A stretch of 64,000 nt of DNA from a bacterium (GTDB taxonomy: Bacteria > Chloroflexota > Dormibacteria > Aeolococcales > Bog-877). Below are positions 1 through 42,875 of the stretch, one piece after another. Under the pieces are notes generated by a model. The model was not told the origin of the DNA. It ran no database searches and saw nothing but the letters and a program-made list of their open reading frames with translations. The position numbers and the translations under genes are program-made. The DNA lies in contig JAKATL010000010.1 of assembly GCA_021827985.1 (NCBI GenBank), positions 1 to 64,000 of the forward strand. Reading direction: 5' to 3'. Position 1 is the first letter of the stretch, and every line of letters starts with the position of its first letter.

Positions 1-447
1 CTCGGCATCCGGCCAGGACACCAGTGCGCAACTCTGCCCGGCCTCACCTGGGCACCGGCCCAGATGGGTGTCCCTCGGGCGCGGCTTCCACCGCAACGCC
101 CATGCCACCGCGGTCGTCCCTCGTGGCGACTTCGGCCCCAGGGCGCTCGGCTACGCCCCGCTTAGAGTCGCTTAGAGTCGCAGAGACCCTGGAGTAGCCC
201 GCCCCGGCATCGTCCACGGCCCGGCGGACCCGGGGCACGAGGCGGCCCGGAGCTCCTCGTAATCCGCCACCTGGCTGTGCTCGGAGATCTCCACCACCAC
301 ATCGTGCCGCCGCCGGTGCAAGAGGCGACCCAGGTCCCCACCGGCGGACACCGGTCCCTCCGATGCGCTCTGGACATGCCCTGAGACTAGGCCGGCAAGC
401 TGGATTGGGTGGTCACAGGGCCGCAAAGTCGGCGTGACGCCCGGGGG
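1..447. other. no convincing gene
   Basis: Only short overlapping open frames occur here on the minus strand, none with a recognisable domain. The stretch lies downstream of the J-domain gene and could hold the end of a decayed gene, but nothing in it supports a product. Confidence 0.4.
161..180. repeat. 10-bp perfect tandem duplication
   Basis: The decamer CTTAGAGTCG occurs twice head to tail with no spacer. It lies in the gene-poor left edge and has no visible function; replication slippage is the simplest explanation. Confidence 0.8.
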
Positions 448-26577: not shown

Positions 26578-27873
26578 TCAGCGCGAGCCCCCGTTCCCCC
26601 TCGGGCCGGGCCGGCTCTGAGCCCGGTAGGACCCCGACCCGAAGGGACGCCGCCCGCGGGGTCGCGCTCCCCCGCGCCTTCCTCCGGGGGACAGCGCAGC
26701 CGACGGAGACGGGCCGGCCCCGCGAGGGGGATCAGCCAGATAGCGCAGGGCTCCGGTGGCGATGAGCTGGGCGGGGTCTACGAACCTCAGAGCGGGGGCC
26801 CCCTCGCGGCGGAGCTTGCGCCACTTCTCCGAGTCATCCTCTGAGAGGAATGTGAGGGCTCGGCCGTGGGCCCCGTTCCGGGCGGTTCGACCCACCCGGT
26901 GGGTGAGCCACTGAGCGGTGTCGGGCAGCTCGAAGTTGACGACAAGGCTGACGTCCTTGACGTCGAGGCCTCGGGCGGCGACGTTGGTCGCCACCAGCAC
27001 CTTGGCCTCGCGGCGGTGGAAGGACGCGAGCGCCCGATCGCGGGCGGCCTGCGAGAGGTTGCCCTGCAGCTCGGCGGTGGGGTGTCCCAGCAGGCTCAGG
27101 TCGCGGGCCAGCTTCTTGGTCCCGTGCTTGGTGCGGTGGAAGACGATGGTGGAGGACGAATGGGCCAGCAGCTGGCTGAGGTACGCCACCTTCCCGGCCC
27201 GCGGCAGGGACACCAGGCCGTGCTCCAGCGCCACCTCCTCTGGCGGCTCGACAGCCACCCTTCCCGGGCTCTTCAGATGGCGAGCCGCCATCTTGGTGAC
27301 CCAGTCGGGCATGGTGGCGGAGGCGAGGACCGTCTGCCGGGCCTTCGTGGTGGTTCGCTGGTTGGTCCGCTCGACCAGCTTTTCGACATCCTTGGCGAAC
27401 CCGGCATCCAGCATCTCGTCCGCCTCGTCCAGGACCAGGTACTGCACCGCGCCCAGCCGCGCGGCGCCTCGCTCCGCCAGGTCCACCAGCCGGCCCGGGC
27501 AGCCAATCACCACATCGGCTGTCCGCAGCTGGTTGATCTGGCCCTGATAGCCGACTCCCCCGAAGACCAGGGCCTGCCGCAGCCGCGGGTCGAGGCGGCT
27601 CAGGACACCTCCGATCTGGGTCGCCAGCTCCCGCGTGGGGGTCACGATGAGGGCCCGGGGAGGGCTCTGCTGATGACCGTCGAGGTGCTCCGACATGGGG
27701 ATCAGGAAGGCCAGGGTCTTCCCCGACCCCGTAGGCGACTGGATGACGCAGTCCCTACCGTCAATGAGGAGGGGTAGCGCCTCCGTCTGCACCGGGGTCG
27801 GGGTGTCCAGGCCCTGGCGCCGCAGGTTCTCCAGAGTGCGCGCGCGCACTCCCAGCTGTTCGAATCGATTCAT
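26578..27873 (-). CDS. DEAD-box ATP-dependent RNA helicase
   Basis: 431 residues with the ordered DEAD-box motifs: TPVQTEALP (Q motif), SPTGSGKT (I), PTRELA (Ia), GCPGRLVDL (Ib), DEAD (II), SAT (III), then TIVFHRTK (IV), [14 protein letters not shown] (V) and [10 protein letters not shown] (VI). A glycine/arginine-rich basic tail of about 50 residues follows, as in RNA helicases that act on rRNA or cold-stabilised mRNA. The ATG at 27873 is used; the upstream in-frame extension has no family similarity. Confidence 0.95.
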
Positions 27874-28637
27874 GTGGGTGTTCCCGGGCCCATGGCCCCA
27901 ATGCGCCCTCGCCGACTTCGCTGTAAGCACGCTTCTCGAGGACGCCGCTTCGTCAGCGGGGCGAGGTATCACCAAGAGGCCGCATCGCCAAATTGCGAAT
28001 GCCGGACCAGCATAGCAGGGCTGGCGCTGCGCACCTGCCCAGGGGTCCGGTCGGGAGGGGCCCTCAGGAGGCGAACAGTGCGGCGCGGATCAGGTTGGCG
28101 ACGGTCAGGGCAGAAATGTACCGACGAGGAGGTGCCCTGCAGACCGACGCCCGTCCCGCCGCTGGAACCCGTGAATTGGGCGACGGACTCAATCGATGCC
28201 ACAGCCTACCCGTGAGGTCGGAGGAGGCGCCCCGCTGGCCACCGGCAGGGTGGGTGTGCGTTCGCGGGCGGAGAGGCCCCTGTCGGCGGGGCCGGCGATC
28301 CCCAGGCAAAGGGGGAACGGGCCCGCGATCCCTAGCACCTCAAGGACCCCGGCCGCCATGGCCCGATTTGTGAGGGTGGCAGACACTTTAGCCCGACGAA
28401 TTGGTCGCGTCCGCGTGCAAGCTCTCAGCCGACCCGCCCCAACCGGAAGCCAAATTAAGCAGCCGCAGTCCGCTGCCAGGACCGCCCGGGTCGGACACGC
28501 TCACCTCGAAATGAGCCTGACCGGTGTCGATCCGGTCGGCCTGGCAGGAGGTGTCGACGGCGTCGAAAGGTGCCCCGGTGGCGCTCTCAGTCTGTGGGCG
28601 TCCTGTGGCTCGATCCGCTTGTGGGATCAAGGCTGAC
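27874..28637. other. gene-poor stretch, left edge of accessory region
   Basis: No convincing gene is seen. Short frames occur on both strands without recognisable domains. A minus-strand frame ending near 28388 has a compositionally protein-like run, possibly a remnant of a secreted protein, but its origin cannot be identified. The looser coding density marks the transition to the decayed region. Confidence 0.4.
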
Positions 28638-31582: not shown

Positions 31583-31668
31583 GGTGTGCACATGGTAGCA
31601 CTAATGACCCGTGAACCTCCTCAGTACGCGAGCCCCTGCGGCGATCGATGGCGCGGCCGCGCGTCCGG

Positions 31669-33123
31669 TCACCTGCTCGTCAGTGGGCCCATGGCATCGG
31701 GCCCGGACTCGCGGAGGTGGTCCAGCCTCTGGAGCCCGTCGTAGGCGGCGTACTTGTAGGCGTCCGCCGGGCTCGGGAAGTTGAAGGTGGTGTCGATGAA
31801 CTCGTCGATTTTTCCGCCCGCATGAAGCACCGCCTGGGCCAGATGGACCAGTTCGGTGGCCTCCTCGCCCAATATGTGGGCCCCAGGAGGCGGCGGTCGG
31901 AGGCCCGGAACACCAGCTCGAGCAGCCCCTCACTGGAACCCGCGATCCCGGCCCGGGCGTTGCCCTCGAGGAGCGCTCGACCGGTCAGCACATCCTCACC
32001 GGCCGTCACCGCAGCCGCTTCCGTCAGTCCGATCATCGAGACCTCGAGAAGGGTGTAGATACCGGTGCGGACAAGGGGGTCCGCGGCGTCCTTGAAGTGG
32101 ATCTGGAAGGCGCGACACATGGCCACCCGAGCCTGCTCCATGCTCACAGACGCCAACCCGGGGGGACCGATGATGTCGCCGGCGGCAAAGATGCCGGCGG
32201 TGGTCGTCTGGAAGTCTCGGTCGACGAGGATGCGCCCCCCTGGCGTCGGCCTCCACCCCCACCTCGGCCAGGCCGAGCCCCTCCACGTTGCCGACCCTCC
32301 CAACGGCGTGGACCACCACATCGGGACGGAGGGGCCTCCAGTTCACCACCACCCGCAGCCCTCTGCGGTCCCGCCCCACGGAATCCACCTCGGTACCGGA
32401 CATGAACCTCACCCCGGCGCCACCCAGGATCCAGAGAGGCCAGACGAGACCTCCGCGTCGAGCACCGGAAGGAGACGCTGCCCTCGGTCCACCAGGGTTA
32501 CTCGAACACCGAGGGCGGCGAAGATCGAGGCATACTCGGAGCCAACCGGGCCGCCACCCACCACCATCATTTCCGATGGCAACCGCTCCATCGCCAGTAC
32601 GGTCTCGGAATCATGGACGTCCGGGTCCTCGAACGGTACCTCCGGTGGGTGCAGCGGGTGGGAGCCGGTGGCGATCAGGATCACCCCAGCTCGCAGAATC
32701 CGCTCATCGCCGTCGTCATCTCGCACTACCACGGTCAGATCGGGCCCAAGCCGCCCCTCACCCGGGACCACCTTCGACCAGGTGGCGCAGGAGGTTCTCC
32801 CGCCGCACGGTGGCCGTGCTGGCCATCACGTCGAGCGTCCGACGCCGAAGGCGGTCCATGGCCAGCTCCGGCGAGAGCCGGATCGCGATGCCTTAGGTCT
32901 CGCGGCGGGCCCACCCGGACAGGTATATGGCGGTGTCCTGGAGCGCCTTGACCTGGACTCCCCCCACGACGACGCTGGCAGCTTCGAGCGGACGGGTGCG
33001 GCGCTCCACCACGGCCACGCTATGGCCGTGGTAGGCGGCTTGGGCCGCCCCCTTCTCCCCGGCCGGACCGCCGCCGATTACGACCAGATCGAACTGGTCT
33101 CGATCGGGGGCGCTCGTTCTCAC
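31669..33123 (-). pseudogene. broken Si-specific NAD(P)+ transhydrogenase (SthA-like)
   Basis: Fragments in all three minus frames together cover a full soluble pyridine nucleotide transhydrogenase: FAD site FDLVVIGGGPAGEKGA at the N-terminus, ATGSHP and VVGGGPVGSEYASIFAALG in the NAD domain, GIFAAGDIIGPPGLAS, and the C-terminal EEATELVHLAQAV ... FIDTTFNFPSPADAYKYAAYDGL. Lesions include loss of about 8-9 residues where the GTIPSK-type segment should be, an in-frame TAA at 32893-32895, and frameshifts near 32765, 32420, 32235 and 31875. The gene is clearly inactive. Confidence 0.88.
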
Positions 33124-33144
33124 TTGGAGGGCGAGCCTATCGGG

Positions 33145-33522
33145 CTACTGGGGGCCTCCCCTCACACCCTCTGCGTCCAGCTGCCGAACGTGGCCCACGG
33201 TGAAGCTGCGCGGGAAGGTGCCCAGGGTGGAGGGCGCCAGGACCGCATGGCCCAGCACCTCCTGAGTCGCTCCGGCCCGGAGCACATTCGTGTCATCGAT
33301 GCTGTCCCCGCCGGCCAGCATGGAGTGGATGAGCGACATCGACTTGGGGCCGACATTGGCCCGGCCCGGGGCATCTCCCAAGTCGAGGTGCTCCTCCACC
33401 ACCTACCTCAAGCACAGGTGCTGAGCCAGTGTGGCGGGTAGGAGGAGTCCGGCATTGGCCACCAGGCGAGGGTCGTCGAACTCCACCCCCAGGCGGTCCA
33501 AAGTGCGCGATGATGGCTGCAT
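33145..33522 (-). pseudogene. IS1380-family transposase N-terminal remnant
   Basis: From ATG 33522 the minus frame encodes the start of an IS1380 transposase (FDDPRLVANAGLLLPATLA; MSLIHSMLAGGDSIDDTNVLRAG; PSTLGTFPRSFTVGHVRQLD) with an in-frame TAG at about 33406 and truncation after about 125 codons. The catalytic DDE domain is missing. It ends 21 bp before the start of the broken sthA. Confidence 0.8.
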
Positions 33523-33705
33523 CGAAAAGGTGCTCCTTTGCTGGGGCTGATTGGCGTCTTGTCCGCACCAATTATCCCAGCACTGAGCGCTTTTTCTTCG
33601 TCTGCCGGCCTCTGAGCCTCCCTACCTCGCCTGTGGATCCAGGCTACAGAAGCCGCCGTTGTGATAGCCGCTCCTGGTGGAGATACGAGTGCCCAGCCCA
33701 CGGGC

Positions 33706-33999
33706 TCAACTCCGGTGGCGCCGCTCAGCACAAACTGTAGCGGCTTCTCGATCGGACTGGGTTCGGCGTGCATTGACGTTAAAGATCTCAGCTTGCCGGG
33801 AGGTGATGTCGGTGCGCTGGTGGGACTCGCCGGCGGGGCCGCGGAACGCGCCCAGATGCATGAGCTGGAGCTCGTGGCGGAGGTTGCGCCAGCTGTCGTG
33901 GGTGCGGATCTCGGCCACCCGGATCAGCAAGAGGGCCAGCCTGCGGCACGCGACAGGAGTCTCCAGCAACCCTGGAGCGGTCACTCCTCGCTGTGACAC
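33706..33999 (-). pseudogene. DDE transposase C-terminal remnant (IS1634/IS4-like)
   Basis: A minus-strand fragment reads LETPVACRRLALLLIRVAEI ... WRNLRHELQLMHLGAFRGPA ... QRTDITSRQAEIF, resembling the extreme C-terminus of IS1634/IS4-superfamily transposases. A stop codon lies directly upstream of the fragment and the tail after AEIF is unrelated, so both ends are truncated. The family assignment is tentative. Confidence 0.5.
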
Positions 34000-34522: not shown

Positions 34523-34978
34523 TCACTTCGCCACTCCCAACGCGAACATCACCCTCTCACGTTGTTGCCGTGAACCGGCAGTCAACGGCAAATTGGCAGC
34601 CTGCGGCCCCCGACGGTCGCTTTCGGATGGATGCACGCCAAGACTCCTCGAGCACCACTCGCGCATACTCGCGGACAGCCGGCCGATCGGGACTGCTACA
34701 GCTGCTGCCAAGGCCATCATCGCCACCATCCACAGAGCGAATGCGAGCGCGGCGAAGAACAAGGCCTGATGGCCAAGGCCAGCTACCCCAAGGGGCTGTC
34801 CCAGGCTAGTCCACCCGTTCACGGCGACCATAGGGTAGTGGTGACCGCCCGGGGTGGCGCAGTTGTACCAGTCGGAGCAGGTCCGGCTGGCCCATGTCGC
34901 GCTGATGTATTGCTGCCCGTTCAAAGTGCTGCGGCAGCCGATCTCGGTCCCCTGCGGCATTGCCGCTACACCGAGCAC
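34523..34978 (-). CDS. small membrane protein, start uncertain
   Basis: 151 residues from GTG 34978. An extracytoplasmic loop with three cysteines (GCRSTLNG, RTCSDWYNC) precedes a strong transmembrane helix (ALFFAALAFALWMVAMMALA). The open frame continues upstream through a second hydrophobic stretch (LATLAAVIFAAFAVLG) to an AGGAGG at 35057-35062, but no ATG, GTG or TTG follows it; an ATC codon at 35048-35050 lies 6 nt after the ribosome-binding site. The true protein is therefore probably about 24 residues longer. No family recognised. Confidence 0.55.
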   Translation of the reverse strand: MLGVAAMPQGTEIGCRSTLNGQQYISATWASRTCSDWYNCATPGGHHYPMVAVNGWTSLGQPLGVAGLGHQALFFAALAFALWMVAMMALAAAVAVPIGRLSASMREWCSRSLGVHPSESDRRGPQAANLPLTAGSRQQRERVMFALGVAK

Positions 34979-35339
34979 GGCGAAAGCGGCAAAGATAACG
35001 GCGGCAAGGGTGGCGAGGCCTGTTCGCCACTCTTGAGCAGCGCGGCTGATCCCGTACCTCCTAGGTTCCGTCGAGCTGTGGAGATGCTGGCCGTTCCATC
35101 GGCGGACGCCGCGAGTCTACGGCCTCTGACCTGAAAGAGTGGATAGGCTGGGAGGAGGCCGGCGAGAGGGCTGAGGTACGCAGCGCCGGCACCAGTTGGG
35201 CACGGTCGCGGGCCTGGGCAGCTGGTCACAGATGGGGGTCTGGGGCTTGCTGCTCCGGAACAGGGTGTGGAGGGGCCGCCGAGGGCGTGTTGAACCTAAG
35301 GGAGCCGCAGCGGCCGGTCGCTGGAGGGTGGTGGGTGGC

Positions 35340-36794
35340 CTACCCGGTCGGGGCCAGGCGGAGGATCTGGAGGTGCAGGGCCCAGAACTCCTCCTTGTGG
35401 AGCATCCCAGGCGCCAGCCGCAGGCGGAGCCGCCGCCCACCCCGCACCAGCCGGGCCGGCACCGAGAACAGCCAGCGGCGCAGCAGCTGGCTGTTGTGGG
35501 GCTGGCCCACGGCCGCCAGCTGCTCACCTCCAAGGCTGCCCCCAGCAGCGGCCTTCGCCTCCTGCCGCTCCCGGCAGACGTTGACCGCCGAGAGCATGGC
35601 GGTCAGGTTGGTGGCGATCACGGCCGCGGTCTGCCAGGCGTAGTTGGCCCGGCGCCTTTGCTTGGGCAGGTGGATCAGGCCGCAGCCCAGCTTGAGGTCC
35701 TTGATCCGCTCCTCGATGTGGGCCCGGCGCCGCTGCCAGAACTCCAGCTCCACCGCGTCCTGGGCCAGGTCGGTGGCGATGAAGGAATAGGCGTAGGTGT
35801 GGCTCACCATCCCCTTGAGGGCCAGCTGCAGCTGCCCCTTGGGGATGGTCCTCCTCCGCCGGCTCCTGGGGCACTTTGAGATCTCCTTCGCCTCCACCCT
35901 GACCCGCCGCACCAGAAGCCGCAGCGGCTCATGCTGCCAGCCGGTGGGCGTGAACCGCAGCTCCGCCCCCTCCGCCCCCGCCATCTCCCGGCAGGGCCGC
36001 CAGCTGCTGGGCGAGAGGTGCCGCCGCAGCTCCCACATCACCTGGTAGTGGGGCACCACCACGCAGAACCGCAGCCGGTGCCCCCGGCACCAGTTGAGGA
36101 ACCCCGCGCTGTAGAAGCCGCTGTCCGCCCTAAGCCGCACCTCCCCGTGTCCCCGGGGCAGGGTGCGCAGCGCCCTCAGCACCAGGCGGGGGGCGATCGG
36201 CTTGTCGGAAGCGGATCCTGACCGCAGCCCCGCCGCCAGCACCCGGCGGCGCTCCGCCCAGGTGCAGAGCAGGGAGCCGAAGCTCAGCTTCCCCTCGTAG
36301 TTGTAGGTGGCCTCCTCCTTCAGCTCGCCGTGGACCTCGGTGGTGGTGGAGTCGAGGTCCAGGGTCACCGGGTCTTTCTCCGCCAGCCCCAGCATCCGGT
36401 CCAGCTCCACTCCCGCCTGGGCCAGCTCGGCCACCACCGCCTCCACCTGGCGCTGGGTGAACCGCGGCAGCAGCTGGCTGGCGGTCTCTGGAGCGGGCAC
36501 CCTGGCCACCGCCCGCAGCACCCGGCCGGCCTCATCCTCACGCAGAGGATCCAGGTGAGCCAGATGGCTGCCCCCGGCCAGGATGGACTCCCCAAGGCAG
36601 ACCAGCAGCTCGCCGCCGCTCAGCCCCCGGCGCCGCTGCTTGAACTGCCGCACCCTCTCCACCGCCGCGTCCAGCCGCTCCACCAAGTGCAGCTTGGAGT
36701 TCAGATCCCGGACCAGCAGCAGCCCGGCATGGCCGGTCAGGGTCGGGTCATCGGGGCCGCGGTGAACGGTGGGGACGGTTGCGCTACGCTTCAC
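35340..36794 (-). CDS. IS1380-family DDE transposase
   Basis: About 484 residues, the usual size for the family. The catalytic triad is visible: first Asp in LDLDSTTTEVHG, second in RADSGFYSAG, Glu in HIEERIKDLK, plus ATYNYEGKLSF and the conserved C-terminal NYAWQTAAVIATNL segment. The GTG at 36794 is chosen because GCAGGAGG lies 10 nt upstream; a TTG at 36836 would add 14 residues. Only an 8-bp ATGGGGGT match in inverted orientation (35232-35239 / 36836-36843) was noted near the ends, too short to define the element's termini. It looks intact and potentially active. Confidence 0.9.
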   Translation of the reverse strand: MKRSATVPTVHRGPDDPTLTGHAGLLLVRDLNSKLHLVERLDAAVERVRQFKQRRRGLSGGELLVCLGESILAGGSHLAHLDPLREDEAGRVLRAVARVPAPETASQLLPRFTQRQVEAVVAELAQAGVELDRMLGLAEKDPVTLDLDSTTTEVHGELKEEATYNYEGKLSFGSLLCTWAERRRVLAAGLRSGSASDKPIAPRLVLRALRTLPRGHGEVRLRADSGFYSAGFLNWCRGHRLRFCVVVPHYQVMWELRRHLSPSSWRPCREMAGAEGAELRFTPTGWQHEPLRLLVRRVRVEAKEISKCPRSRRRRTIPKGQLQLALKGMVSHTYAYSFIATDLAQDAVELEFWQRRRAHIEERIKDLKLGCGLIHLPKQRRRANYAWQTAAVIATNLTAMLSAVNVCRERQEAKAAAGGSLGGEQLAAVGQPHNSQLLRRWLFSVPARLVRGGRRLRLRLAPGMLHKEEFWALHLQILRLAPTG

Positions 36795-37540
36795 TCGCTG
36801 AGTGCCTCCTGCTTGGAGCCGATGGGCGAATCTCAACCCCCATTTTCCAAGTCAGCGAGGCACTTCTGCTACCTGCCCCCAACCCTTCTTCCTGTCCTTA
36901 TCCACTCCTTCAGGTCTGACGCCTGTAGATGGTCAGGGTGAGCCAGCCAGGTGCCCGGCCACACCAGCTCAACGATCGTCACGCCATGGACAATACCCGC
37001 CTGGCGCCGCTTACCGGTCACGGCCACGGACCGGGAGTCGGCGTCGGGCTCCCGCTGTGCGTTGCCCTCGGGCCAGATGGACCTCTTGGAGTACTCTCGA
37101 TGCGGGCGAACGCAGGCCGCGCGCACGGAAGTCTCGGGTGTTACGTGATGCGCCGACTGGACGGGAGCGATACGAATGACTCCTGTGGTCCCGGGTTCAC
37201 CGTTGGCCGTGGGGGAAGATGTCAGTCACTTGGTCTTATACCTTGTGAGGGTTGGCCATCGGGCTACGACGAGGGGCTCAGTCGAAAATCAGTCGGGGGC
37301 GGAGATGGCGAAAAGCTAGCTCGATGAGCGCAGAGTGAGCGGTACGTGCACTCGGGGGTGCGAGGCGCTCGGCAGGCCTGGGGCGTCCTGACGGAGCAGC
37401 CGACCTCCACGAGGTACCTCACCGCGCCGCCCGTTGTCTACTCGGCCCGTGTTCGGCCAGCTCTCCCTGAGCGGGGATCGGACCGAGAGTCGGCCCTGCA
37501 GTGAAATTACCCTCAGCACAGCTGGCACCGGCTGGTGGAG
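36795..37540. other. no recognised gene between IS and att-like repeat
   Basis: Includes the right flank of the IS1380 element and about 600 bp of sequence with only short, unrecognisable frames on both strands. Base composition is less GC-rich than the flanking core genes. Nothing functional is identified. Confidence 0.4.
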
Positions 37541-37653
37541 TTGTTGTCAAGGCTGTTGTCAGTTGTCCGGTCAAGTTGCCGGTATATCGTCCATTTGAGA
37601 TCAAAGTGGTGGTGCCGAGGGCGGGATCGAAGCGCTGACACCGGGTGTTTCAG
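37541..37653. repeat. left att-like direct repeat with tRNA-Phe 3' fragment
   Basis: Matches 41686-41798 in direct orientation. Conserved blocks: TTGTTGTCA-GG-TGTTGTCAG (20 of 22), TTGAGATCAAA (11 of 11), and a tRNA-like block from TGGTGCCGAGG through GCGGGATCGA and GACACCGGGT to TTTCAG (about 40 of 44, one base missing). The tRNA-like part corresponds to the 3' end and T-arm of tRNA-Phe but lacks the 5' half. The yhaN-like stop codon (37650-37652) lies inside it. Confidence 0.75.
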
Positions 37654-40319
37654 CTGGGAGCAAGACGAACCAGGGTGACATCTCCCAGCTGGCGGTAACG
37701 ATCGGGACTGGACGTCATGATCACCACCTGGGCCTGCGCGGCGGCAGCGCCAAATGCCGGCGCCAAGCGCTTCAGCCTTGTGGGGTCCGAGTTACCCAGG
37801 GCATCATCGAGGATCACCGGCACCCCCGCGTCCCCGGCGGTGCCCTCGGGGTTGACCAGGATGGCGCAGGCGAGGCGCGCCAGCACAGCGAGTTGCTCTC
37901 GAGCCCCGGTGGAGAGCGAGTCGAAGGGAACCGTGACACCTGCGACGGTCCGGGTCTGGACGGAGAAGGTGTCGGGGTCCACCCGGATCAGCGTGTCCGG
38001 GCCGAACACTAGGCGCGCGAGCCTCTGAATCTGATCCTCGTATGGGGCGACGTAGGCCTGTCGCGCCAGGTCGCGGTGTCGGGAGAAGGTCTCGTAGAGA
38101 AGCTTGGCGGCCCTGGCCCGTCGCTCCAGCCCCGCGTGCTCGGGAGCCAGGCGGGCGACCTCCAGTTCGGCATCGTCGAGAGCTGCCTGCAGGTCGCTGG
38201 ACCCCTTGACCCGGAGGGTGGTTTCCACCTCTGCCTGCTCTCGGGCCAGGTCAAGGTGCTCGGCCTGGAGCCGTCGCAGCAGGGCCTCCGCGTTCGCGAG
38301 GCGGGCTTCGACTCCCTCGGGGTCCCCCTCGGCGTACCTTGCGTCGGCGTGGGCCAATTGGGCTTCCTGGCGTTCCACCTCTCCGTGAGCCGCGGCCAGG
38401 CCGGACAGGAGGGCATCATCCGGGACCTGGCTGCGCGCGTGCGCAAGTGTGGCTGCGATGGCGGCGAGGTGCCCCCGCTGGGACGCGACCAGGGCGGTGT
38501 TGGCACCTGCTTGGACCCGAAGCGAGTTCAGATGCCGCTCGGCGGACTCCGCCGCCGCCCGGGCCACTGCAATGTCCTCGGCGGCAACGCGCCTCCGCTC
38601 CTCCGCGGCGCGGTGGGCGGCCTCCGCCTCTTCCAAGGAACCCGGAATGGGCGGCACAGCAGGGCGGGACCCTGGATAGCCATCGGCAATGGCGCCGGTG
38701 CTCTGGACCTTGGCGGCCAGCTCCTCTTCAGATAGGTCCTCAAGGGCGTCGGCGCGGGTGCGGCGGGCGCTCTCGATGTCGTGCTCTGCCTTGGCCCTCG
38801 TCTCCAGCGTCTCGTTCAGTTCCGCAAGGGGATCGGAGGACGTCAGCCCCAGCTGCTTTGCGATTTCATCTACCGCGCTCTCCGCGTCCTTCGCCCTGGC
38901 CTGGAGGTCCCTTCCCGTCCCTCCGCCGGTCACCCGCACGGTGACCAAGTCCTGGAGCTGTACCACGACTTCTCCCACGACCTGGGTCCGGTGCTGCGAC
39001 CCGGGTTCGAGGTGGATAGTCGCTCCGTCGACCGAGAGGTCCACCGCGGAGTGGGCTTCCAGGCTCAGGGCTGAACTGGAGACCGCGAGCGCAGCCCGCG
39101 CCTCCCCGCGGCGACGCAGGGCCCGCTCGAGCAGCTTCCGGCCTTCCGTGGTGGCCTTGCACTCGTCAACGAACTGTCGGGCGCGGATCTCGTGCCTGCG
39201 ACTGCTGAGTACGCGTTCCAGGCGGTTACTGAGCAGTCGGTGATCGATCTCGGCTCGGCGATAAGCCATGTCGCCCTGGGCGAGTGCCAGTCCCGTGGAT
39301 GCGAGGTCCAGCTCCTCCTGGGCGCTGGATTGTCGCAGTGATGCCTCGGCGTAGGCAGCCTCAGCCTCCTCCATGGGCCCAGCTTCCTTCCGGCTTTGCT
39401 CGAGGAGCTTCTCCAGTTCTGCTTCGGTGCTCCTCACCGCCTCTGCCTGGGCCTGCCTTGAATCAAGCGCCTGGCGCGCAGCCTGTTCCCGCGCCCTGGC
39501 TCCGGCGAGGTCGGCTCTGAGGGTCTGGAGTTCCAAGGCGAGGACCCCGAGGCTGCGCGACCGCTCCTGATGCTCCGCCAGGTCTGTGGCCGCCTCCGCT
39601 TGGGCCAGCCGGTTAACTGCCAAGCGTCTCGTGATGTCCCGGTGCCTCTCGCCGGCGTTCTCGATCTCCTCCAGGCTTACCTGCACGGCGCTGGCCCTGG
39701 CCCGGGCGGCCGCTAATTGGGCGGACGCCTGTTCACGGGCCTGGGAGACGCGTCCGGTGGAGGTGAAGTACCGGCCCCACTCGGCGCGGATGGCTTCCCA
39801 TAGCGTCGACTCCGACCTGGGGTCCGCCGTTCCTCCGGACGCCGCCCGGTCCAAAGCGCCGACCAGGGTGGTCGAGGTCCCGACGTCCCCCTGCTGGACC
39901 CGCTCACCCTGGACGAAGCGCAGCGCTCTGTACAAGCTCCAGTCCAGAGTTTCGTCGAGGATCGCCCGGACCCGGTCGTGGGCGGTTCGGGCCGTGAGAC
40001 TTTCTGGCGCAGGGGTAAAGATCTGCAGGCGGGTCTCGGGCCGGTGGAACCAGCGTTTGAAGTAGACCAAGTGATACGGGCCGGTCGTGAACTCCGCTTC
40101 GACCTCCGTACCGACGCTCCGATGCACCGGCCGTACCGCCTCGAGCCGCCTGTGAGTCGAGTCGTGAGGAAAGTCCAGAAGGACATCGAGGGCTTCGGCC
40201 AGGCTGGACTTGCCGATCTCGTTCGGGCCCTCTATGAGCGTGATGCCGGTGCTTGGTATGGAGACCTCACTTGCCTCTACTCCGCGGTAGTTGCGGATGG
40301 AGATACGAATGACCCTCAT
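37650..40319 (-). CDS. YhaN/SbcC-like SMC-type ATPase
   Basis: 889 residues. Walker A is GPNEIGKSS at about residues 31-39; the ABC signature LSTGAREQLAVLARLACA and Walker B VPVILDDALGNSD are near the C-terminus; a long coiled-coil rich in Ala, Glu and Arg connects them. No CxxC zinc hook is seen, so it resembles YhaN rather than Rad50/SbcC proper. It overlaps the nuclease gene by 4 bp (ATGA), the classic arrangement of an SbcCD/YhaNO pair that processes DNA ends. It lies between att-like repeats, so a role in mobile-element biology or phage defence is possible. Confidence 0.85.
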   Translation of the reverse strand: MRVIRISIRNYRGVEASEVSIPSTGITLIEGPNEIGKSSLAEALDVLLDFPHDSTHRRLEAVRPVHRSVGTEVEAEFTTGPYHLVYFKRWFHRPETRLQIFTPAPESLTARTAHDRVRAILDETLDWSLYRALRFVQGERVQQGDVGTSTTLVGALDRAASGGTADPRSESTLWEAIRAEWGRYFTSTGRVSQAREQASAQLAAARARASAVQVSLEEIENAGERHRDITRRLAVNRLAQAEAATDLAEHQERSRSLGVLALELQTLRADLAGARAREQAARQALDSRQAQAEAVRSTEAELEKLLEQSRKEAGPMEEAEAAYAEASLRQSSAQEELDLASTGLALAQGDMAYRRAEIDHRLLSNRLERVLSSRRHEIRARQFVDECKATTEGRKLLERALRRRGEARAALAVSSSALSLEAHSAVDLSVDGATIHLEPGSQHRTQVVGEVVVQLQDLVTVRVTGGGTGRDLQARAKDAESAVDEIAKQLGLTSSDPLAELNETLETRAKAEHDIESARRTRADALEDLSEEELAAKVQSTGAIADGYPGSRPAVPPIPGSLEEAEAAHRAAEERRRVAAEDIAVARAAAESAERHLNSLRVQAGANTALVASQRGHLAAIAATLAHARSQVPDDALLSGLAAAHGEVERQEAQLAHADARYAEGDPEGVEARLANAEALLRRLQAEHLDLAREQAEVETTLRVKGSSDLQAALDDAELEVARLAPEHAGLERRARAAKLLYETFSRHRDLARQAYVAPYEDQIQRLARLVFGPDTLIRVDPDTFSVQTRTVAGVTVPFDSLSTGAREQLAVLARLACAILVNPEGTAGDAGVPVILDDALGNSDPTRLKRLAPAFGAAAAQAQVVIMTSSPDRYRQLGDVTLVRLAPS

Positions 40320-41452
40320 CGTCCCCTCGCTGCCAACCGCCGGACTAGCATCAAGGCGTCTCGTGCGGCATCGGCTTCCTCGCCACTGTTGGCTGCGGCG
40401 CGCGAGAGCTCCGCCACGGCCTCGCTGGCGAACCCGGAGAGGTCGATGGAAGCCAGGTCCGAATCGGCAGGGATCACCACCAGTTCGCTCCGGCCCTCCG
40501 AGACCTCGAGGCTCGCTAGCAGGTCCCGGCCCGCGGCCAGGGTCTCGTCCAGGAGTTCCGCCGTGGCGAGGTCGACCGTGCCCACCAAGGCGAGGCGCAC
40601 GACCGTCCGCTCCTTGTCAGGAAGGCTTGAAAGCGAATCGGCAAGCGCTCGGACGCTCTCTTCGCCGTCCAGATCGAGGTGCCGGCGCACGAAGTGCCAC
40701 CGGCCGATCGCTACGGGCTCGACGGCAACCCCGCCAGGGTCTAGGTCGACCACCAGCGCCTTGTTGCTGTCGGCCTCGTCGAAGTCGGTCGCGACCGGGG
40801 CGCCCGAGTACCAGACGCGCTCGGTGACCTCGGTGACGGAGTGGCGATCGCCGAGCGCCACGTAGCTGACCCGCCGGCTTGTGATCGCCGCCCTGAGTCC
40901 CGCCACCGAGATGAGCGAAGCATCCAGTGGGTCGGCAGCGAGGGAGTCCACTGCGCCGTGCCCGATGGCTACCCGCAGCGTTCCGGAAGGCGCCGGATCG
41001 AGAGGCGCAAGGGCGGCCCCCAAGAGGTCCATGTCGGGCTTGCGGCTCGGCCACGGCGCTCCCACCACCTCCACGGGCAAGTCGGGCACCTGGACCGGTG
41101 TCGCATCGTGGAGCACGTGTGCCGCCGGAGGTAGCGGTACGGGCATCCGTCCTGGCGCCCACAGCCCCGCAGGGTTGTCGGCGTCGTGGTTGCCCGGGAG
41201 CAGGAACACTGGCACTGTGAAGGTGGCCAGAGCGTCAAGAGCTCTGGTGATGACGCGCCGAGCGGGAAGGAGCGAGTCGAAGACATCGCCTGCGACCACG
41301 ACGAAGGCGCACCCCCGTTCGGATGCCGTCAGGGCAAGCCGACGTATTGCCTCGATCTGGTCATCCGCATAGCGGGCCTGGGCGTCCGCCGAGAGGAAGG
41401 CGCGGGTCATCCCCAGCTGCCAGTCCGATGTGTGGAGGAACCGAATGCTCAC
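40316..41452 (-). CDS. YhaO/SbcD-like metallophosphoesterase (Mre11-type nuclease)
   Basis: 378 residues from GTG 41452. The calcineurin-like phosphoesterase motifs are present in order: HTSDWQLG (motif I), VVAGDVFDS (II), LPGNHD (III), and ALGDRHSVTEV (later metal-ligand region). Predicted Mn-dependent exo/endonuclease working with the overlapping YhaN-like ATPase. The C-terminal third is poorly conserved. Open frame extends 42 codons upstream but without homology; no strong ribosome-binding site marks either start. Confidence 0.87.
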   Translation of the reverse strand: MSIRFLHTSDWQLGMTRAFLSADAQARYADDQIEAIRRLALTASERGCAFVVVAGDVFDSLLPARRVITRALDALATFTVPVFLLPGNHDADNPAGLWAPGRMPVPLPPAAHVLHDATPVQVPDLPVEVVGAPWPSRKPDMDLLGAALAPLDPAPSGTLRVAIGHGAVDSLAADPLDASLISVAGLRAAITSRRVSYVALGDRHSVTEVTERVWYSGAPVATDFDEADSNKALVVDLDPGGVAVEPVAIGRWHFVRRHLDLDGEESVRALADSLSSLPDKERTVVRLALVGTVDLATAELLDETLAAGRDLLASLEVSEGRSELVVIPADSDLASIDLSGFASEAVAELSRAAANSGEEADAARDALMLVRRLAARGR

Positions 41453-41685
41453 CCGGGCGAACTCCGAAGCGCAAGGTCTCGCCGCACTGTACACCTCCAT
41501 GCGGCGACTTCGGCCACCCCAGGCGGAGCGCGATCGGTGGCTGTCGCGTCCCCTGAGCTGTGCCGTGGCCCCAGTCATGTGTTAGTCGGTCGGAAGGTCC
41601 GTGCCCGGCGCTGTGCCGGTGCGGGATGCTGCCCAATGAAACTTGCCTGCACGGGCCCACGGGGGTGCTGGCTTCCACGCTCCGG

Positions 41686-41798
41686 TTGTTGTCACGGTTG
41701 TTGTCAGCGGACCGTACCACTTGCCTGGCCAGCCGCTGATTGAGATCAAAAACTGGTGCCGAGGGGCGGGATCGAACCGCCGACACCGGGTTTTTCAG
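41686..41798. repeat. right att-like direct repeat overlapping tRNA-Phe
   Basis: Partner of 37541-37653. It contains the 3' end, T-arm and anticodon-proximal part of the intact tRNA-Phe plus about 68 bp downstream of it. The direct orientation, the fact that the intact tRNA is on this side and the truncated copy on the far side, and the tRNA 3' end pointing into the bracketed segment all fit integrase-mediated insertion at the tRNA 3' end. Confidence 0.75.
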
Positions 41799-41829
41799 AC
41801 CCGTGCTCTACCAACTGAGCTACCTCGGC
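41754..41829 (-). tRNA. tRNA-Phe (GAA)
   Basis: A 76-nt cloverleaf on the minus strand: acceptor GCCGAGG pairs with CCTCGGC, D-arm GCTC-AGTTGGTA-GAGC, anticodon stem CGGGT/ACCCG with loop CTGAAAA (anticodon GAA), T-arm GGCGG-TTCGATC-CCGCC, and encoded ACCA 3' end. All stems are fully paired. Confidence 0.97.
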
Positions 41830-41975: not shown

Positions 41976-42716
41976 TCAGAGCGCGGGCGCCCTCTCCGCG
42001 GCGTGGGCCTGGGCCCAGGTGATGTACCCGTCCGTCGCCATCTGCTCCAGGACGATGGCTCGCCGCTCCACCGCTCCCTCTGGGTTCGTTATGGGGTCGA
42101 GCAGAGCCGGAGCCTGGGGCAGCCCGGCCAGGAGTGCCAGTTGGGCCAAGTCGTCCCGGAGGAGCGGCCGGTGGAAGTATTTGAGGCTCGCCTGGGCGAA
42201 CCCCACGGTGCCGGATCCGAGGTGCACCTCGGAGAGGTAGGCATCCAGTACCTGGGTCTTGGTCAGGTGGTCCTCGATCTTGAGTGCCAGGGTGATGTCC
42301 ACCCACCTCCCCCAGAGCGAGCGGTCGGAGCCGTGGAGGTAGGCGTCTTCCGCCAGCTGTTCGGTGATGGTCGAGCCGCCCTCACAGGCGCAGTGGTTCA
42401 CGAGGTCGTATCCCGCCGCCCGGATGAGCCCTTCGAGGTTCACCCCGCGATCCAGATAGAAGTTCTGGTCCTCCACCGCGACCACCGCCTGGGCCAGGTA
42501 ACGGGGCACCTGGGAAGGGGTGACGGGAGCTGTCCCGTGCGCCTGGTCCAGATTGGCGACCCAACCCCGTATGCCCTGTGTGGAGGGGGTCGAGATCCAG
42601 GTGAGACACCAGACCACGGTCGCGGCGGTGACAGCCAGTCCGGCCGCCCATCGCCACCTCTGCCCCGGCTCGGTGCTGTCCGGCGATACCCTAGCCCGAT
42701 GCTGCCCAGGACCCAC
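41976..42716 (-). CDS. GT51 peptidoglycan glycosyltransferase (monofunctional)
   Basis: About 246 residues: an N-terminal transmembrane anchor (about 25-45) and a GT51 domain with AVVAVEDQNFYLDRGVNLEGLIRA (catalytic Glu of EDxxFxxHxG-type motif, here with R for H), GGSTITEQLAEDAYL and KIEDHLTKTQVLDAYLSEVHLGSG. No transpeptidase domain follows, so it resembles MtgA, polymerising lipid II. The start is uncertain (GTG 42716 or GTG 42800); either overlaps the 5' end of the divergent small membrane protein gene. Confidence 0.85.
   Translation of the reverse strand: MGPGQHRARVSPDSTEPGQRWRWAAGLAVTAATVVWCLTWISTPSTQGIRGWVANLDQAHGTAPVTPSQVPRYLAQAVVAVEDQNFYLDRGVNLEGLIRAAGYDLVNHCACEGGSTITEQLAEDAYLHGSDRSLWGRWVDITLALKIEDHLTKTQVLDAYLSEVHLGSGTVGFAQASLKYFHRPLLRDDLAQLALLAGLPQAPALLDPITNPEGAVERRAIVLEQMATDGYITWAQAHAAERAPAL
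42687..42692 (+). promoter_or_regulatory. leaderless -10 element (TACCCT)
   Basis: TACCCT is followed by 6 nt (AGCCCG) and the ATG of a 58-residue membrane protein. Supports transcription of that small gene. Confidence 0.5.
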
Positions 42717-42875
42717 GTGCGTCGACTCTATCTGGCCCTGCTCGGGCTGATCTGCTTCGGGATCGCCCTTGGACTCTCCTGGGGGCTGGGGGCGAGCCAC
42801 CTCTGGGTGCAGGGAGTGGCCATGGTGATCGCGCTGGGAGCCTTCGGGCTGGCGGCGCTCGCCGCTCGAGCGTAG
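42699..42875 (+). CDS. small two-helix membrane protein
   Basis: 58 residues with two hydrophobic helices (LYLALLGLICFGIALGLSW and VQGVAMVIALGAFGLAALA) and a short N-terminal basic segment (RTHVRR). It overlaps the 5' end of the divergent transglycosylase gene. The well-placed -10 element and helix-helix pattern argue it is real; function unknown. Confidence 0.55.
   Translation: MLPRTHVRRLYLALLGLICFGIALGLSWGLGASHLWVQGVAMVIALGAFGLAALAARA

Follow-up and report, generated by a model that had tools for sequence, protein, structure and literature searches.

The window, a 64,000-nucleotide stretch of DNA, carries beside its tRNA-Phe gene a two-gene cell that is very probably what remains of an integrated mobile element. 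A tyrosine-integrase element with a Mre11/Rad50-like pair would have inserted into tRNA-Phe at the anticodon loop. The copy of nucleotides (nt) 32-76 that it brought along would have restored the tRNA gene, and the copy that it displaced would mark the far end. The rad50 stop codon and the far core have CTGA in common, and a deletion between them would then have taken out the integrase together with the right repeat pair. This would have left a two-gene cell flanked by cores, with older remnants stacked behind it at this site.

Organisation of the two-gene cell

The cell and its borders comprise the following features.

41754..41829, minus strand: intact tRNA-Phe (GAA), the integration target (ARAGORN)
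41754..41798, minus strand: tRNA-proximal attachment core, tRNA nt 32-76, which recurs as a half-tRNA in relatives
41685..41706, minus strand: left repeat pair, TGACAACAACCG twice with a 12-nt period, the copies beginning 47 and 59 nt after the CCA
40316..41578, minus strand: Mre11-like metallophosphoesterase, 420 aa (PF00149; aligns to Thermotoga-type Mre11/SbcD PDB chains)
37650..40319, minus strand: Rad50-like ATPase, 889 aa (PF13175/PF13476/PF13514, AAA_15/AAA_23/AAA_27)
37610..37653, minus strand: distal half-tRNA core, 44 nt, about 91% identical to nt 32-76 (sequence alignment)
37540..37561, minus strand: repeat pair of the next element, TGACAACAGCCTTGACAACAAC (repeat search)

The first-pass annotation had described an imperfect 113-bp direct repeat with copies about 4.1 kb apart, and this description holds: positions 37541-37653 and 41686-41798, at a spacing of 4145 nt, are identical at 80 of 113 positions without gaps, the next best ungapped match scoring 52 in the window and 51 on the opposite strand. 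Alignment of the two copies, which had been proposed as a means of defining the core att sequence, divides the repeat into a tRNA core (about 91% identity) and a downstream tail (about 71%) that contains paired TGACAACAAC repeats. The distant copy has the 3′ part of the tRNA without its 5′ half, as claimed; nt 32-76 align at 91% (E 1e-10 in a search of the whole assembly) and nt 1-31 are missing. This distal core is mutated and has lost one base. The 3′ end of the tRNA gene does point into the bracketed segment, which is filled by two intact open reading frames, both on the minus strand and encoding the Rad50-like and Mre11-like proteins. The Rad50-like stop codon falls inside the distal core, the gene overlapping the repeat by 4 nt. 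The absence of an integrase was also borne out: the assembly has 15 PF00589 matches, all of them on contigs other than C57, and tblastn with eight integrase sequences found none in the cell.

Integration at tRNA-Phe in related genomes

We searched 61 draft genomes, that of the window (G000) and those of related uncultured bacteria assembled from metagenomes, with the 76-nt tRNA. Alongside intact genes, relatives have half-tRNAs that begin at nt 31-33 and extend to the 3′ end. Clear extra copies occur in at least 10 of the 61 genomes (G000, G006, G012, G015, G017, G026, G036, G041, G042 and G044), a count that excludes G039, whose copy lies at a contig end, G009:C84, whose copy has 85% identity and lacks a repeat pair, and G021. 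The same half-tRNA core stands beside unrelated cargo in different relatives, and intact integrases adjoin tRNA-Phe in G004, G014 and G026. Across relatives the flanks of the site are syntenic and the content between them is variable. A transglycosylase gene lies upstream, and in G000, G002, G006 and G007 the downstream flank is the same 484-aa gene region and/or a DEAD helicase. The two conserved neighbours in the window are:

41976..42800, minus strand: transglycosylase, upstream of tRNA-Phe (profile match and synteny)
26578..27975, minus strand: DEAD helicase, beyond the variable region (synteny with relatives)

These observations support the earlier proposal of integrase-mediated insertion into the tRNA. 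In G009:C36, G012:C7 and G016:C41 the 5′ part of the tRNA (nt 1-42 or 43) runs into other DNA after CTGAAAAACCC or a variant of it, and these broken ends would place strand exchange, probably by the integrase, within about nt 32-42, that is, in the anticodon loop and stem. We conclude from the sequence comparisons that tRNA-Phe is a hotspot for tyrosine-integrase elements whose attachment core extends from the anticodon loop to the CCA. The locus comparison that had been suggested yielded integrases beside tRNA-Phe in relatives; within the genus, among draft genomes, no unoccupied tRNA-Phe turned up. No tRNA-Phe locus was found in G003 or G005, both of which are outside the locus comparison. 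The G012 and G017 bins may be mixed, since G012:C7 is identical to G006 over the 84 nt upstream of the tRNA and a different flank occurs on another G012 contig, and since G017:C4 and G015:C123 share an identical 6-kb stretch.

The presence of non-tRNA downstream sequence in both copies of the repeat would also be expected from a duplication of the tRNA 3′ half together with the DNA that follows it, involving no integrase. The same half, starting at nt 31-33, is however found in many genomes with unrelated cargo, fixed-position repeat pairs and integrases, and its occurrence in more than one genus, and in a second family as well, largely refutes such an origin, which we find hardly credible.

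Repeat pairs on either side of the cores

The tails that follow the tRNA CCA have in common a TTTGATCTCA-like motif and then a direct-repeat pair with a 12-nt period, about 47 or 59 nt on. The repeat sequences in these tails are TGACAACAAC, TTGACCACAG, TGATCCAACC and TACCCCAAC, with TGACACCTTCG in a second family. When tails were searched for repeats without a prescribed motif and scored against 60 shuffles per tail, the observed score was reached by none of the 60 shuffles for the proximal tail of the window, by one for its distal tail and by 10 for the proximal tail of G007; in many other tails, including several of intact, seemingly unoccupied tRNAs, this search found no repeats beyond those of the shuffles. 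Of 48 att-adjacent segments, 21, representing 20 distinct sequences, have a left pair at +46..49 or +60..61, against 3 of 1812 internal windows, under repeat classes that were derived from those same 48 segments and that leave 27 of them without a pair. Right-hand pairs precede the cores at about -117/-105 or -127/-115 and are present in five of eight bounded cells. The window cell retains its left pair and has no right pair, that stretch being rad50 coding sequence.

Elements that target tRNA genes by a tyrosine integrase are known that have a lambda-like attP with arm sites on two sides. The arrangement seen here, with a core in the tRNA and paired repeats at fixed distances on either side, resembles such an attP, the repeats being putative integrase-binding sites.

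Origin of the window cell

The closest counterpart of the cell is found in G007, a genome of the same genus in which the pair also lies beside tRNA-Phe, with amino acid identities to the window of 88% (Mre11) and 86% (Rad50) and with a similar tail after the tRNA. The alignment of the two genomes runs to CAGCTGA at the end of rad50, where they part. In G007 the C-terminus of a convergent integrase directly adjoins rad50, its best stretches matching G017:C69 over 62 aa (66% identity) and G004 over 64 aa (58%); its nucleophile region has LDPHPP in place of LDLYSH, so it is broken. The core of the window begins instead at the rad50 stop codon, and CTGA is common to the stop and to the start of the core. 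This suggests a deletion at microhomology, although the shared CTGA could be a coincidence. No distal core was found in G007 above shuffled controls, and the intact ancestral element was not recovered whole among the relatives.

The first-pass annotation had offered three explanations for the missing integrase: a satellite, a deletion derivative or an element mobilised in trans. Because G007 has a broken integrase after rad50 and the window cell has no right pair such as is seen in the best-preserved cells, we favour a deletion derivative, probably no longer mobile, over the other two.

Stable core synteny of the pair beside tRNA-Phe had been named as evidence that would speak against insertion. 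That is not what the genus shows: the pair is found at tRNA-Phe in two of its genomes, the window's and G007; G001, G002, G004 and G006 have other cargo there, and relatives of the pair in G012 and G017 lie away from tRNA-Phe. The flank proteins, at 87-95% amino acid identity, have diverged about as much as the pair (86-88%), and inheritance of the pair from the genus ancestor onwards is therefore conceivable. It could then be an old chromosomal neighbour of tRNA-Phe, the half-tRNA belonging only to an element further left that inserted behind it. Against this, an attP-like tail follows the intact tRNA in both the window and G007, the integrase remnant adjoins rad50 in G007, and the relatives with the most similar flanks (G004 for G000, G002 for G007) do not have the pair; we consider this arrangement very unlikely. 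Within the preferred reading, an inserted element that has suffered a deletion, the history of the pair could be either inheritance with losses or separate acquisition. The dN/dS values between window and G007, 0.19 for rad50 and 0.22 for mre11, indicate selection to maintain both proteins over most of the period after the two genomes separated.

Cells without an integrase

The bounded cells are 2.5-12 kb long with unrelated cargo, and none of the eight has a full-length integrase, partial ones occurring in two (G021 and G012:C228). Cargo in or near these cells includes DUF6788, GNAT, AbiEi and AbiEii; PIN_3, HTH_17 and RrnaAD; an alpha/beta hydrolase with a sigma factor; FtsX and ABC proteins with a sigma factor; and APH with a methyltransferase. 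Three cells without an integrase, the RrnaAD cells of G015 and G017 and the AbiE cell of G017, have both repeat pairs. The RrnaAD cell (G017:C146 and G015:C123), 2.5 kb long, encodes an rRNA adenine dimethylase of an Erm-like family and a PIN protein; it is 93% identical from core to core, over the whole 2475 nt, between genomes in which its neighbours differ. G001:C76 and G012:C228 are 99.7% identical over 1105 nt from the core, a match that can be called no more than suggestive, because the G012 bin may be mixed.

Such two-sided cells, and the recurrence of one of them among different neighbours, would also fit a window cell that is a live satellite, which an integrase encoded elsewhere excises and inserts in trans; both cores and the left pair are in place, and G000 has three integrases related to those at tRNA-Phe. 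These integrases, however, are found close to predicted tRNAs other than Phe (Ser, SeC, Thr), and the window cell has a degraded distal core and only its left pair. We regard a live satellite as unlikely.

More speculatively, and with more doubt than belief on our part, the site might be an integron-like platform. On this view, integrases acting in trans would insert and reshuffle small cells that have no integrase of their own (Erm-like methylase, PIN and HTH; AbiE and acetyltransferase) and keep complete, two-sided attP-like ends, and would carry them from one lineage to another; the Mre11/Rad50 cell would be a stranded member. Integrons are defined by an integron integrase and attC sites; the att core here is half of a tRNA.

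Remnants to the left of the cell

In our reading, at least four element remnants are stacked between 33.1 and 41.75 kb, with the cell at their head. The segments assigned to the older remnants are listed below.

37506..37656, minus strand: core and left end of a second element, 78% identical to G017:C56 (blastn)
35340..36836, minus strand: transposase of the DDE_Tnp_1_4 family, inside the second remnant (profile match)
34678..35125, minus strand: left-end segment of a third element, 90% identical to the integrase-bearing element of G004:C83 (blastn)
33784..33944, minus strand: segment 84% identical to DNA shortly before the att core in G012:C228 (blastn)
33167..33645, minus strand: left-end segment of a fourth element, 87% identical to G006:C25 just after tRNA-Phe (blastn)
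31665..33144, minus strand: chromosomal DNA common to G002 (87%) and G006 (84%), the left edge of the variable region (blastn)

The transposase is presumably of the IS1380 type. Cores for the third and fourth remnants were sought and none was found above shuffled controls. G002 has about 2 kb between the tRNA and the left flank, the window 8.6 kb and G006 12.3 kb. The 484-aa gene of this flank, open in G002 and G006, is represented only by broken frames in the window (31665-33144).

The Mre11/Rad50-like pair

As had been described, the cargo of the cell is just this pair. The two proteins presumably resemble YhaO/YhaN or Rv1277/Rv1278. Mre11/SbcD proteins are defined by five phosphoesterase motifs. 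The nuclease matches Mre11/SbcD chains of the PDB with E 7e-9 and retains the GD, GNHD and GH motifs, whereas motif I reads DWQ rather than DWH and motif V reads GDRH rather than GHxH; the histidines replaced bind metal in Mre11. The loss of one histidine from each of these motifs is common to all four homologues examined (window, G007, G017, G012). In Rad50/SbcC the Walker A motif is near the N-terminus and Walker B near the C-terminus, separated by a long coiled coil; the Rad50-like sequence reads GPNEIGKSS and VILDDALGNSD and matches N-terminal ATPase profiles. Like SbcCD and Mre11-Rad50, the pair couples a metallophosphoesterase with an SMC-like ATPase in one operon, and it scores below the NCBIfam cut-offs for SbcD and Rad50. 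We predict that it is probably a working ATP-gated DNA-end nuclease kept as cargo.

The nuclease is patchily distributed, being found at E 1e-40 in 5 of the 251 genomes of a sample of the phylum, the window's included, and in close forms in 4 of the 61 relatives (the window's own, and at 88%, 59% and 45% identity). It has matches in 127 plasmid records, the best at 42%. A biological role in repair or defence may be supposed. The relative of the pair in G012 adjoins FtsH, DNA polymerase IV-like and RecA-like genes, a neighbourhood that leans towards a possible repair role. Assignment to a known defence system was rejected, since PADLOC matches only the N-terminal ATPase motif region of the ATPase and nothing in the nuclease. 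A viral origin was likewise set aside, the att pattern having no exact match in viral contigs and the nuclease one weak phage match. No tRNA gene was found at five other pair loci that were scanned (G280, G112, G264, G017 and G012). A XerC/XerD-like recombinase is encoded about 3 kb from the 59% relative of the pair in G017:C104, where 16 kb were scanned and no tRNA was found.

Relation to known systems

The window cell has features of a decayed tRNA-targeted tyrosine-integrase element in that a direct repeat of the tRNA 3′ part lies at its far end in the same orientation and the content of the site varies between conserved flanks; the integrase is absent in the window, a remnant beside rad50 in G007 and present in other elements at tRNA-Phe. 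Structures of this kind are already known. Cis-mobilizable elements (CIMEs; PMC5704250) have lost integration and transfer genes, retain their att sites and are stacked by tandem accretion at one site; mobilisation in cis by a neighbouring element is a further mark of the class. The window cell is similarly stacked and has neither integration nor transfer genes (two genes only, no integrase match). It differs in having only two cargo genes and in that, where a CIME keeps attL and attR, it has a left core with a left pair and a distal core with no right pair. The Dehalococcoides ssrA locus, as set out in the relevant part of PMC3146451, has tandem islands bounded by repeats of the 3′ end of an RNA gene, with 28 direct repeats aligned and 15 islands without an integration module; the target there is tmRNA and the recombinases are of the serine type, whereas here they are tRNA-Phe and the tyrosine type. 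Integrase-less cells with both repeat pairs could go beyond these precedents.

Little was found on genomic islands in Dormibacterota in the literature searched, and no published account of this locus was found among titles and abstracts. The locus offers a readable case of a mobile element decaying to bare cargo, a genome of the same genus still having the broken integrase, and the fixed-position pairs on both sides of integrase-less cells make mobilisation in trans at a tRNA testable.

Related loci elsewhere

In G009 a chromosomal tRNA-Phe is cut to nt 1-42 (C36:11596-11637), and an intact tRNA-Phe lies beside an integrase on a separate contig (C35:17748-17822), TGGCAACCAT pairs flanking both places. 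Genes on these contigs include those for a TraG/TraD-like coupling protein, TrwC relaxase, Cas3, Cas_GSU0053 and Cas4-Cas1. G016 shows the same pattern, with a decayed 5′ remnant of tRNA-Phe (C41:1507-1548) and, on another contig, an intact gene preceded by GATCTGATCTCA (C30:8238-8313). The element in G009 may supply a promoter-bearing 5′ half of the tRNA, or it may resemble tRNA-dependent lysogeny (PMC10865867).

A repeat pair near a XerD-like integrase in G000:C55 was considered as a helper site and rejected, its core being too decayed to assign. The integrases of G000 related to those at tRNA-Phe lie on C38, C54 and C3, near tRNA-Ser, a predicted tRNA-SeC and tRNA-Thr, and other tRNAs may therefore hold similar stacks.
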